Below, piece after piece: positions 3,511 through 63,934 of a stretch of DNA of 64,000 bases. Position numbers and translations under genes: made by a program. Location: assembly GCF_902501965.1 (NCBI RefSeq), contig NZ_CABWID010000018.1:1-64000 (forward strand), written 5' to 3'. The notes under the pieces were generated by a model that was not told the DNA's origin, did not search any database, and worked only from the letters and a program-made list of their open reading frames with translations. The DNA is from Collinsella sp. AK_207A. GTDB lineage: Bacteria; Actinomycetota; Coriobacteriia; Coriobacteriales; Coriobacteriaceae. The first letter of the stretch is position 1. Every line of letters begins with the position of its first letter.

Positions 3511-3732
3511 GGCGTGGACGGCTTGGATCCGTGGCAGAAGACCCTTCGAACTTCCGCAGCGAACTGAGGCGTTTCTGGGAGATAGTCCCTGGAACGAACA
3601 GCGGTCTCCACGCCCATCGCGACAACGAGCTCATCCTCGTTCTGTTCGTTCCAGGGACTATCTCCCAGAAACGACCAGTCTCGCGAGGAGCGAGCAAGGG
3701 TCTTCCGTCGCCCTATCCGGGCCGTCTGCGCC
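3511..3732. repeat. nested-palindrome intergenic element, copy D
   Basis: Outer arms 3511-3546 and 3696-3732 are imperfectly complementary, ending in a 9-10 base perfect match. Inside are the conserved shoulders seen in the other copies: CCGCAGCGAACTG at about 3553-3565 and CCAGTCTCGCGAGGA at about 3675-3689. The innermost part is a long palindrome given as a separate entry. The element starts about 10 bases after the proA stop and fills the 315-base gap before the HD gene; no gene lies here. Confidence 0.75.
3571..3672. repeat. 30-bp perfect inverted repeat inside copy D
   Basis: Arms 3571-3600 and 3643-3672 are exact reverse complements over 30 bases with a 42-base spacer. The spacer has its own small palindrome (AACGAG/CTCGTT). 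It occupies the position where copies A and B carry the short AAAACGGC/GCCGTTTT hairpin. Confidence 0.9.
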
Positions 3733-3742
3733 GAGCCGGCAA

Positions 3743-5056
3743 TTACGGCCGTACCTGACCGGTACCGCGAATCTCGTACTTGTAGGTGGTGAGCGCCTCG
3801 GTGGCGAAGGGACCGCGAGCATGGAGCTTCTGCGTGGAGATGCCGATCTCCGCACCCAGACCGAACTCGCCGCCGTCGGTGAAGCGCGTACTCGCGTTGG
3901 CGTAGACCGCCGCCGCATCCACCTCGCGCAGAAAGCGCTCGCACGCCTCCGTATCCTCTGCCACGATGGCCTCGGAGTGACCGGTGCCGTGGGCGTTGAT
4001 GTGCGCGATGGCCTCGTCCTCGCCGGACACCACCTTGACGCTCATCTCCAGGGCCAGGTACTCACGGTCCCAGTCGGCATCCGTGGCGGGAGCGAAATGT
4101 GCGAGCGGCGCGTCCGCGTCGCCCCGCCGGCCCGCAGAGGCCGTCACCGCGGCACCGCGCGTGGCGGCGTCGCCGTGGATGAGCACGCCGGCCCGGGCGA
4201 GCTCGTCCAGTATGCCGGGCAGGAACTCAGGCGCGACCTCGTCGTCGACCAGCAGGGACTCCGCCGCGTTGCACACGCCCACGCGCTGCGTCTTGGCGTT
4301 CATCACGATGGCGCGCGCCTTCTCCAAATCGGCGGAACGGTGCACGTAGATATGGCAGTTTCCCGTGCCTGTCTCGATCACCGGCACCAGGCTCTCGCGC
4401 ACGCAGCGCTGGATGAGGCCCGCCCCGCCGCGCGGAATGAGCAAGTCGACCACGCCGCGCTGCCGCATGAGCACAGCCGTGGCCTCGCGGTCCGTGGTCT
4501 CGATGATGCTCACGGACGCGTGCGGCAGGCCCTGGGCCTCCACCGCGTCGGCGAGCACCTGGGCGATGGCCACGCACGAGCGTTGCGCCAGGGAGCCACC
4601 CCGCAGGATGCAGGCGTTGCCCGTGCGGATGCAGATGCCCGCCGCGTCCGCCGTCACGTTGGGACGCGCCTCGTAGACCATGGCCACGAGACCGAGCGGC
4701 ACCGAAACCTTCGTGAGGTCGAGACCGCAATCGATCGTGCGGTGCTCCAGCACGCGCCCGACCGGGTCGGGGAGCTCGGCGAGCGCATCCAGGCCCGCTG
4801 CCATGGATTCCATGCGCTCGGGCGTGAGCAGCAGGCGGTCGAGCATGCCCTCTGTGGTGCCTGCGCGACGCGCGTCCTCCATGTCCTTGGCATTGGCTGC
4901 CAGGGCCTCGGGCGACCGTTTGCGCAGCGCGCACGCCATGGCGTGAACCGCCGCGCGACGACTGTCATCGCTCGCGAACGAAAGCTCCCGCGAGGCGCTC
5001 TTGGCATCGCACGCCAGACGCTCCACGTATTTCCTGACGTTGTAGATGATGGTCAT
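3743..5056 (-). CDS. proA: glutamate-5-semialdehyde dehydrogenase (gamma-glutamyl phosphate reductase)
   Basis: Second step of proline synthesis: NADPH-dependent reduction of gamma-glutamyl phosphate to glutamate semialdehyde. 437 residues, the usual size plus a short insert. Family marks include YEARPNVT, IRTGNACILRGG, the substrate-binding region IPRGGAGLI and the catalytic cysteine in VGVCNAAES. The start chosen (MTIIYNV, 5056) follows AAGGGG; a second in-frame Met 11 codons upstream lacks a ribosome site. The transporter gene lies 34 bases upstream on the same strand and may be co-transcribed. proB is not in the window. The gene ends against repeat copy D. Confidence 0.95.
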   Translation of the reverse strand: MTIIYNVRKYVERLACDAKSASRELSFASDDSRRAAVHAMACALRKRSPEALAANAKDMEDARRAGTTEGMLDRLLLTPERMESMAAGLDALAELPDPVGRVLEHRTIDCGLDLTKVSVPLGLVAMVYEARPNVTADAAGICIRTGNACILRGGSLAQRSCVAIAQVLADAVEAQGLPHASVSIIETTDREATAVLMRQRGVVDLLIPRGGAGLIQRCVRESLVPVIETGTGNCHIYVHRSADLEKARAIVMNAKTQRVGVCNAAESLLVDDEVAPEFLPGILDELARAGVLIHGDAATRGAAVTASAGRRGDADAPLAHFAPATDADWDREYLALEMSVKVVSGEDEAIAHINAHGTGHSEAIVAEDTEACERFLREVDAAAVYANASTRFTDGGEFGLGAEIGISTQKLHARGPFATEALTTYKYEIRGTGQVRP

Positions 5057-5090
5057 GGCAGCCCCTTCGCTCGGCATTTCGCCCATCATA

Positions 5091-6065
5091 CTACGATGCC
5101 ATGCGGTCCCCCGTATCGGGGTCCGTGCCGTCCCATCCGCCGACCGCGGTGCGAACCGGGTCCCAGTGAAGCGTCATCTCCAGATGGTCCTCGGCGAGGA
5201 ACTCGCGCTCGATGCCGTTCAGTATTCGGTGCGCCTCGATCGGGTCCATCTCAGCGGGCATGACCACGTGCGCGGTGGCGAACCGACGTCCGGGGCCGTA
5301 GTCGTGCACCCTGAGCTCATGCATATCGAGCACACAGGGGCGCGAGAGCACGCGGTTGCGAATGTGCTCCACGAGCTCCGGGGAGGGTGCCTGGCCCAAG
5401 AGCGGGCTCACGGTATCCCGCACGAGGCCGATACCGCTTACCAGCACGAACAGGCCGAGCGCGAGGCCCACCCAGCCGTCGAGCTGCACGCCCGTGCCCT
5501 GCGAGATCAGCGCACAGGTCAACACGCCGAAGGTGGTGATGGCGTCGTTTCGGGAGTCCATCGCCACGGCTTCGAGCGCCTCGGCGTCGATGCGGCGCGC
5601 CACGAGCTGATTGAATCCCATCATCCAGGCCTTCATCCCGATGGACATGAGCATGATCGCCAGCAGAGGCAAGCTGAACTCCACGGGCTCGGGATGCAGG
5701 ATGCGGGCGAGGCCCGACCGGCTGAGCTCCACGCCCACGGCCACGACCAACACCGAGGTCACGAGCCCCGCCAGATACTCGAAGCGCCCGTGACCGTACG
5801 GATGCCCCGCGTCCGCCGGGCGCTCGGCGAGCTTGAACCCGAGCAGGCTCACGATGTTGCTGGCGGCATCCGACAGGTTGTTGATAGCGTCGGCCACGAT
5901 GGAGACAGAACCCGATGCCATGCCGATCGCGCCCTTCGCCAGGCAGAGCAGTATGTTGCAGACGATGCCCACCGCGCCGGCAAGCTGCCCGTAGGCGCTC
6001 CGGACCATCGGGTCCGCCGTTTCGCGGTAATCATGCACGAACAGCTTGATGAGCCATGTGGACAT
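5091..6065 (-). CDS. cation diffusion facilitator transporter, possibly manganese
   Basis: 324-residue CDF-family metal/proton antiporter of the cytoplasmic membrane, with about six transmembrane segments and a C-terminal cytoplasmic domain ending in a His-containing strand. The HPYGHGRFE motif follows TM2. The transport-site quartet reads as N62-x-x-x-D66 in TM2 and D170-x-x-x-D174 in TM5. Zinc exporters normally have His in this site, whereas N-D-D-D or D-D-D-D sets are linked to Mn(II) export. Start 6065 is preceded by GGGGAGG. Manganese specificity is an inference from these residues. Confidence 0.85.
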   Translation of the reverse strand: MSTWLIKLFVHDYRETADPMVRSAYGQLAGAVGIVCNILLCLAKGAIGMASGSVSIVADAINNLSDAASNIVSLLGFKLAERPADAGHPYGHGRFEYLAGLVTSVLVVAVGVELSRSGLARILHPEPVEFSLPLLAIMLMSIGMKAWMMGFNQLVARRIDAEALEAVAMDSRNDAITTFGVLTCALISQGTGVQLDGWVGLALGLFVLVSGIGLVRDTVSPLLGQAPSPELVEHIRNRVLSRPCVLDMHELRVHDYGPGRRFATAHVVMPAEMDPIEAHRILNGIEREFLAEDHLEMTLHWDPVRTAVGGWDGTDPDTGDRMAS

Positions 6066-24277: not shown

Positions 24278-24378
24278 CCGAGCGGGCATGCCCTTCGCTC
24301 AGCCCTCGCAAGACTGGAAAACGGCGAAGCCGTTTTCTCAGTTCGCTGCGGAGTGTCGCTTCGGGCATACCCGCCCGG
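24278..24378. repeat. nested-palindrome intergenic element, copy A
   Basis: Outer arms 24278-24293 and 24363-24378 are complementary with two mismatches that become G-U pairs in minus-strand RNA. The 69-base core (24294-24362) matches the core of copy B at 61 of 69 positions and includes the hairpin AAAACGGC-GAA-GCCGTTTT. It lies 36 bases after the serC stop and 23 bases before the serA start. Confidence 0.85.
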
Positions 24379-28197: not shown

Positions 28198-28272
28198 GGG
28201 CGGGGTGGTACCGTCCCGGGCGAGTTCTGGCGCAGCCAGCTGTCTGAAGCCCGGGACGGTACCGCCCCGCCC
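28198..28272 (-). terminator. long hairpin between ahpC and its reductase gene
   Basis: Arms 28198-28220 and 28250-28272 pair over 23 bases with one mismatch, around a 29-base loop with its own CTGG/CCAG pair. It starts 34 bases after the ahpC stop. Without a T-run it may be a partial terminator or RNA stabiliser that lets ahpC be made in excess over the reductase. The rest of the 263-base gap holds no gene. Confidence 0.6.
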
Positions 28273-31973: not shown

Positions 31974-32130
31974 CCGAGTAGTGAACGGGGCTTCTCCGTC
32001 CAAGCAGTGGTCGCCGCCATTTCCCCAGCTCAGGGGCCATCGGTTTATCCGAAAAATGAACACCGCGTTCACAACTCGGATAAACCGGAGCCGGGAGCGT
32101 TCACTACTCCCGATTTTCAACGACAACCGC
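31974..32130. repeat. palindromic repeat R1 flanking the orphan nuclease-like gene
   Basis: Three nested complementary pairs: GAGTAGTGAAC 31976-31986 with 32099-32109; CGGTTTATCCGA 32041-32052 with 32076-32087; and TGAAC/GTTCA inside. A 23-base stretch, 32065-32087, recurs exactly at 33444-33466 in R2. Both copies are followed by TTCAACGACAA. No gene lies in this part of the 272-base gap. Confidence 0.8.
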
Positions 32131-33158: not shown

Positions 33159-33619
33159 ACGGCCAGTATTTCAAAGCACTGGACCCGGCAAAGCGTTTTT
33201 TCAGAATCAGAACCGCGATATGCGGTAATCGCTCCCCCTCATCTGACGGCCCAGTCAGAATTGTGGCAGATTCACCGGAATCCCCGTCTAAATCGTGTTA
33301 GATTTCAACCCTCCCCTGTAGCGCTCCGATGCATGCAGCGGCTCTATACATTGAAGGCACTCGGGTACGGGATAGACAGGTTCACCTGTGTTTTTGGGAG
33401 CTGTGAACGCTGCAAGACAACCGAATCCCGAGTTGTGAACGCTGCGTTCACAACTCGGATAAACCGATGAACTCTGACCGGCGGGTTTACAAGAGCGCCG
33501 GCCGCGGTGAACAGCCGGCGTTCACAACTCGTGTATTTCAACGACAATCCTGCCGCGAGCTTGCACGCGGAGTCGCAGAGCCGGATGGCGATGCACCCGA
33601 TCACGCCCGGCCGCGGCCT
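33159..33619. repeat. AT-richer gap containing palindromic repeat R2
   Basis: 461 bases without a gene. R2 occupies about 33381-33551: CCGAGTTGTGAAC 33428-33440 pairs perfectly with 33446-33458, and the 23-base stretch 33444-33466 equals 32065-32087 in R1. A further GTTCACAACTC lies at 33520-33530, followed by the shared TTCAACGACAA. The part nearest the nuclease-like gene (33159-33380) must hold its promoter, but I see no good -35/-10 pair. Confidence 0.75.
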
Positions 33620-49113: not shown

Positions 49114-49196
49114 GTGTACGAACGAACCAGACACGTTCTTTCACCCGGCTCCGCGGACGGCGGGCGTGAAAGAACGTGTCTGGTTCGTTCGTACAC
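49114..49196. repeat. 31-bp perfect inverted repeat between divergent genes
   Basis: Arms 49114-49144 and 49166-49196 are exact reverse complements over 31 bases around a 21-base GC-rich loop. It lies between the starts of xseA and the TetR gene, so a terminator role for neighbouring genes is not expected. The rest of the 275-base gap holds the TetR promoter and operator. Confidence 0.9.
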
Positions 49197-59836: not shown

Positions 59837-59949
59837 GGCCGGACGGCCCCGCGTACCCTGCGTTCAGTCCTCGCGAGACTGGAAAACGGCTTCGCCGTTT
59901 TCGCAGTTCGCTGCGGAGTGTCGCTTCGGGTACGCGGGGCCGTCCGGCC
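59837..59949. repeat. nested-palindrome intergenic element, copy B
   Basis: Outer arms 59837-59858 and 59928-59949 are perfectly complementary over 22 bases. The 69-base core (59859-59927) matches copy A at 61 of 69 positions, with the inner hairpin AAAACGGC-TTC-GCCGTTTT. The arm sequences of A and B are unrelated. It lies directly after the lipid-kinase gene, in a 321-base gap between convergent genes. Confidence 0.9.
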
Positions 59950-60011: not shown

Positions 60012-60100
60012 TTGCAGCTCGTCGGTGACGGCGCGGAGCCGGCTGCGGGTCGCCCGTTCCCGCGGCTTCTCCGGGAAGTCTTCCAGTCTCGCGAGGACCA
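60012..60100. repeat. degenerate element, copy E
   Basis: GCCCGTTCCCGCGGCT at 60052-60067 is identical to 63847-63862 in copy C. TTCCAG followed by the shoulder TCTCGCGAGGAC lies at about 60081-60098. The outer arms and left half are not recognisable. It lies 47 bases past the ecfT stop. Confidence 0.6.
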
Positions 60101-63710: not shown

Positions 63711-63934
63711 CGCGCCCGCTCGGGAGGGGCGGCCCGGCAACGCCCCGGCGCCTTCCGCAGCGAGCTGAGAAAGCGTCGAAGCCGAGCCCAGGAACGGGCG
63801 GCGGCCCGATTGCTTGCCTCAACCCTCGGCGAACGAACCCGTTTTAGCCCGTTCCCGCGGCTCGGCGCAGACGTTTTCCAGCTTCGCGAGGACGCGTCGG
63901 GGCGTTGCCGGGCCGTCCCTCCCGAGCGGGCGCG
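63711..63934. repeat. nested-palindrome intergenic element, copy C
   Basis: Outer arms 63711-63746 and 63899-63934 are complementary over 36 bases with one mismatch. The 152-base interior has the shoulders CCGCAGCGAGCTGAG (63755-63769) and TTCGCGAGGA (63883-63892). Between them is an inner palindrome (GCCGAGCC with GGCTCGGC; GGAACGGGC with GCCCGTTCC). It ends 13 bases from the stop of the partial gene at the window edge. Confidence 0.85.

Follow-up and report, generated by a model that had tools for sequence, protein, structure and literature searches.

The stretch of DNA analysed here, referred to as the window, comprises the first 64,000 nucleotides of contig NZ_CABWID010000018.1 of Collinsella sp. 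AK_207A. It carries several copies of a palindromic element, in which a core is enclosed by two complementary outer arms. Copy B, on the plus strand, consists of a left outer arm (59837-59858, 22 bp), a core (59859-59927) and a right outer arm (59928-59949) followed by TTTGTTG. The core contains a left shoulder (59869-59882), an inner stem (59883-59903) and a right shoulder (59904-59918). Copy A, also on the plus strand, has a left outer arm of 16 bp (24278-24293), a core (24294-24362) with shoulders at 24304-24317 and 24339-24353, and a right outer arm (24363-24378), and is located in the spacer between two genes of the minus strand, which are taken to be serA and serC. An earlier note on this DNA had described a core common to A and B within arms that pair at each locus and are unrelated between loci. 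We found the cores to be identical at 61 of 69 positions. The arms of B are complementary at 22 of 22 positions and those of A at 14 of 16, with two A.C mismatches, while the arms of A match those of B at 9 of 16 positions.

Copies A and B belong to a short class. Copies C and D were rightly reported to have the same shoulders, and they belong to a longer class. Copy C (3544-3696, minus strand) has an inner part of 108 nt, with inner arms at 3570-3601 and 3642-3673 that are complementary at 32 of 32 positions, and lies 53 nt beyond a proA-like gene (3743-5089). Copy D (63745-63899, minus strand) has an inner part of 110 nt, and its outer arm of 41 nt (63711-63751) is 95% complementary to its partner (63894-63934). 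The left half of a further long copy persists as a relic on the minus strand (60050-60100), comprising a shoulder (60081-60100) and then an inner arm with GGAACGGGC; the right half is absent.

We searched the genome with copy B, which returned about 20 strong matches and several that were split. The split matches are the long class, and a covariance model built from eight long copies identified about 20 long copies. In total, the genome contains about 40 copies of 100-230 nt in two sizes, about 20 with an inner part of 21-22 nt and about 20 with one of 107-110 nt, while one copy has an inner part of 46 nt. The conserved core enclosed by an outer stem particular to each site, as the earlier note had it, was confirmed. 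In both classes, the left shoulder is CCTCGCGAGACTGG and the right shoulder is CAGTTCGCTGCGGAG. The shoulders pair imperfectly across the variable inner stem, with conserved bulges between inner and outer arms. Long copies also share a second conserved joint, in which GGAAC...AACG stands against CGTTCC at a constant distance. Inner and outer stems are equally variable, and complementarity is kept in both. Conservation fades gradually outward, with no sharp stop at the core edge. Possible conservation of the arms across the genome was also checked, and the outer arms of different copies were found to share about as few words as shuffled arms. A coding reading of the 108-nt inner part was dropped because inner lengths of 107 and 110 nt break any frame, and the shoulders, compared by eye with a K-turn, did not match it. 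A census of 463 kb of the genome, a sample partly picked for element-bearing regions, counted 58 perfect inverted repeats (15 bp or longer, within 320 nt), whereas six shuffles that preserved dinucleotides each gave none. Of these 58 repeats, 24 reach 20 bp, and a shoulder or the second core described below is present in 16 of the 24.

The arms evolve in pairs. Of 47 pairs in eight long copies, 27 were changed on both sides, a number reached in none of 500 shuffles. We then analyzed the mismatches remaining in the outer arms, using scoring blind to mismatch type. The 20 long copies have 8 G.T, 8 A.C and 8 other mismatches, and the 17 short copies have 8, 5 and 5, respectively; inner-arm A.C counts were left out, as they contain one fixed mismatch column. 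In contrast, simple terminators with a T tail from this genome have 19 G.T, 3 A.C and 1 other. The difference between elements and terminators is supported by Fisher tests (p = 0.031 for G.T against A.C; p = 0.0007 for G.T against the rest). Maintenance of the arms looks DNA-templated rather than RNA-selected.

The elements are located at gene ends throughout the genome, in line with the proximity to stop codons noted before. Where an element side faces a nearby stop codon (24 cases), the distance between stop and core edge is 14-63 nt in 22, although genes were called by codon score and individual gene ends are approximate. Most copies are in sense orientation to the preceding gene, while several are antisense, including copy A. 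Most sense short copies are followed by T-rich sequence, as in ordinary terminators, and long or antisense copies are mostly without it. The T fraction of the tails is about 0.37 in sense short copies (counted by hand), 0.25 in all elements and 0.385 in terminators. The T-rich tails therefore make some RNA-level function likely. The hairpin may also act at gene ends, for instance in termination or insulation.

Some arms run into genes. In L149, the outer arm extends over 52 bp with no mismatch and takes in the last 18 nt of uvrC and its stop codon, with an inverted copy on the far side. The arm of L159 covers 10 nt of a gene end, and that of L148 runs over both stop codons of a convergent gene pair. 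A test for avoidance of stop codons by the arms gave a permutation P of 0.57, and the later, larger set of long copies has arms crossing stops. The end of uvrC (LQATQRA*) could be aligned with that of a congener UvrC (LRATE*), which makes the codons ahead of the final two look native; the final two before the stop have no counterpart in the congener. These few codons, compared with a single congener, suggest that copying at uvrC may have run from the gene to the far arm. L159 is symmetrised, its shoulders being fully symmetric, as expected if copying ran through them. The asymmetric shoulder pair is kept in 18 of the 19 other long copies; in L163, the left shoulder is degenerate.

We expanded the search to relatives. 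The core of this genome (family 1) was found in no congener. A related second core (GCTC..AGTCCT .. TGCGGAACTCGC) with the same plan was identified in 39 of the 45 genus genomes and 47 of the 67 family genomes, spanning 4 of 6 genera. Judging from their shared motifs, the two cores are likely to have one origin. Orthologs of the L217 locus carry the element in 22 species, with a nearly constant core. Among its arm haplotypes, pair differences were both-sided in 594 cases and one-sided in 84, figures to be read as a ratio rather than a test, since haplotype pairs are not independent events. The pair classes include C-G/G-C, A-T/T-A and T-A/G-C, which are not passable through G.U. The few unpaired cells at L217 lean to G.T (4 G.T, 1 A.C and 1 other).

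Other orthologous loci contain chimeric and intermediate forms. L225 has four matched arm haplotypes, together with a chimera in G012, in which the left arm of one haplotype is joined to the right arm of another and the arms are mismatched. L223 falls into two haplotype groups that have the outermost foot GGCTCCCG/CGGGAGCC in common and differ in the rest of the arm, where a 6-bp indel in both arms sets them apart. At this locus, the changes in G001 are confined to the left arm, while G009 has two of these in the right arm too. Sites lacking the element were sought in three ortholog sets, which yielded only G009 (L253), where the element was apparently lost between GCCAGG repeats, and the rearranged or truncated L308 and L310. 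Empty hairpins, that is, an outer stem without the core, were predicted by the earlier note and were not found among the orthologs of two loci, all of which carry or carried the element. The serA-serC spacer, the site of copy A, holds a second-core hairpin in two congeners, in L119 (13202-13314; genome G039) and L084 (genome G017), and in more distant congeners it has an unrelated 6-bp stem. In young copies at two different loci in relatives, the arm portions flanking the core agree over about 20 bp and the outer extensions are different. Part of the stem therefore moves together with the core, while the remainder is acquired or altered at the site.

We consider it probable that the family consists of dispersed palindromes built around a selected core, and that template-switch (fold-back) DNA synthesis lengthens their arms and keeps them matched. 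While the DNA is replicated, the nascent strand would fold back on the palindrome and one arm would be copied into the other, by template switching or quasipalindrome correction. The arms would change in pairs because one is copied into the other. Copying past the edge of the element would lengthen the stem into neighbouring DNA, and the outer stem would therefore be specific to the site and sometimes include the adjacent gene end. The agent of these changes would be template switching in replication. The shoulders are still asymmetric despite the copying, which suggests that they are under selection, perhaps as a protein binding site for using or spreading the element. However, strong selection for pairing could likewise favour double changes, and both the lean to G.T at L217 and the terminator-like tails of sense short copies speak against the template-switch reading.

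Those same two features, together with the very strong covariation and the constant distance after stop codons, are what one would expect of an RNA element. Here, a transcribed hairpin (a 3' UTR, a terminator or a protein-binding RNA) would be selected, and compensatory mutations would keep the arms paired. In this genome, however, G.U does not exceed A.C or other mismatches as it does in bona fide terminators, and many of the pair changes are impossible via G.U. Codons lie inside arms, orientation relative to the gene varies, with several copies including A antisense, and no Rfam family was matched. At gathering score, Rfam gave no match in the window and none on the elements of relatives, the only scores being sub-threshold ones for miRNA hairpins; the one match among relatives was RNase P, beside the L200 element. 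We regard an RNA element as possible but doubtful. The suggestion in the earlier note of an RNA structure with a locally maintained stem holds as far as local maintenance goes, but this maintenance looks templated by DNA, not selected in RNA.

A variant of the template-switch reading gives the core a more active part. The bulged core would be recognised by a dedicated factor, which would promote fold-back synthesis or the processing of hairpins, and the element would in this way actively rewrite and lengthen its own arms at each site. We think this unlikely. If true, it would mean that a repeat can carry just its centre and build its ends from local DNA.

An element in the loop of terminator-type hairpins was one of the two readings offered by the earlier note; it would have inserted into pre-existing terminators, with the outer stem being the old terminator. 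The location at 3' ends, the T-rich tails of sense short copies and the foot at L223 common to two otherwise different hairpins agree with this. However, the arms are too long for ordinary terminators: they often reach 20-50 bp, while the simple 3' hairpins of the same genome have a median score of 10 bp and only 2 of 80 reach 20 bp. Some arms enter coding sequence, the G.U signature is missing, conservation declines gradually with no sharp core boundary, about 20 bp of arm are common to young copies, and no empty hairpin was found in the ortholog sets examined. We therefore judge such an origin to be quite improbable. Like intrinsic terminators, the elements form a hairpin soon after a stop codon, with a T-rich tail on some copies, but they differ in having a much longer stem, often no T tract and no preference for G.U among mismatches.

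REPs are palindromes of 20-50 nt tagged by GTAG (or CGTC) and associated with TnpA-REP transposases (PMC8266576, PMC3733652). The elements resemble REPs and BIMEs in being extragenic imperfect palindromes with conserved stem bulges, and this genome has a single Y1_Tnp gene (G000:C16:12714-13007), but spread by a Y1 (RAYT/TnpA-REP) transposase recognising the bulged hairpin is very unlikely. No shoulders were found near this gene, which is instead adjoined by a different palindrome, GTGGTACA..GGGAC. The presence of PF01797 and that of the core are not linked across genomes: G019 (12-15 core matches) and G017 (8) are without PF01797, while G029, G038 and G041 have a PF01797 gene and no core matches. 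The tags GTAG and CGTC each occur at 6 of 74 element sides, about as expected by chance. Membership of the REPs was rejected on size (100-230 nt), tag and transposase link, and the hypervariable matched arms are a further difference. Separately, we observed that the GTGGTACA..GGGACTGTCCC palindrome by the Y1_Tnp gene (G000:C16:12297-13187; L067/L127) recurs elsewhere in the genome, at L075 8637-8673. The RAYT-like gene and this palindrome may form a REP-like system of their own.

Bacterial MITEs such as ERIC are non-coding and dispersed and have an inverted-repeat structure. The elements here share these properties, but their conserved part is the middle and not the ends, neither defined ends nor a target duplication was seen, and the ortholog sets examined held no clean empty site. 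Template switching has been proposed to create and maintain hairpins (PMC8794818), and quasipalindrome correction has been described (PMC7202029). The elements resemble such hairpins in their perfect stems, in their paired changes, probably made in one step, and in their arms, probably lengthened by copying. As in that process, paired changes outnumber single ones, including changes not passable through G.U, and the stem is extended by an inverted copy of the flank. Those studies concern RNA genes and single hotspots, whereas the present elements are dispersed bacterial repeats whose asymmetric core is conserved, and they can be compared between orthologs as well as between copies. Quasipalindromes are an established site of template switching, and the present data agree with its acting on a dispersed family that has a selected asymmetric centre. 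The origin and upkeep of long perfect hairpins is an open question, for which template switching has so far been proposed from indirect footprints. In this family, present in most genomes of one bacterial family, one can follow paired changes together with intermediates, a chimera and a symmetrised copy, for the most part at orthologous loci. It also serves as a warning that strong covariation need not imply a selected RNA. The literature searched, with subscription papers mostly outside the search, held no account of such repeats in this bacterial group or of a family of like shape. Phages, plasmids and viral contigs gave no match, and four GTDB contig records with both shoulders came from unrelated organisms and were taken as chance matches.

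Other palindromes were observed in the window and elsewhere. A hairpin with 24-bp arms at 28198-28272 of the window has a loop (GAGTTCTGGCGCAGCCAGCTGTCTGAA) resembling the second, genus-wide core and is possibly a degenerate copy. At 49114-49196, near the junction of two minus-strand ORFs, a perfect inverted repeat of 31 bp encloses a 21-nt loop and lacks any known core. Another dispersed palindromic repeat, CCGAGT(T/A)GTGAACGC, unrelated to the shoulders, was found at 32041-32087 and 33390-33464 of the window and at 13177-13328 of L071. In L064, one 15-bp hairpin (ATCCTGCGCATATCG) occurs three times in 4.6 kb (586-628, 3542-3584 and 5074-5116). In the congener G016 (L108, L109 and L110), other palindrome families are represented by several inverted repeats of the GTACGCTATAGGCACG and CGGGGACGTACCT types.
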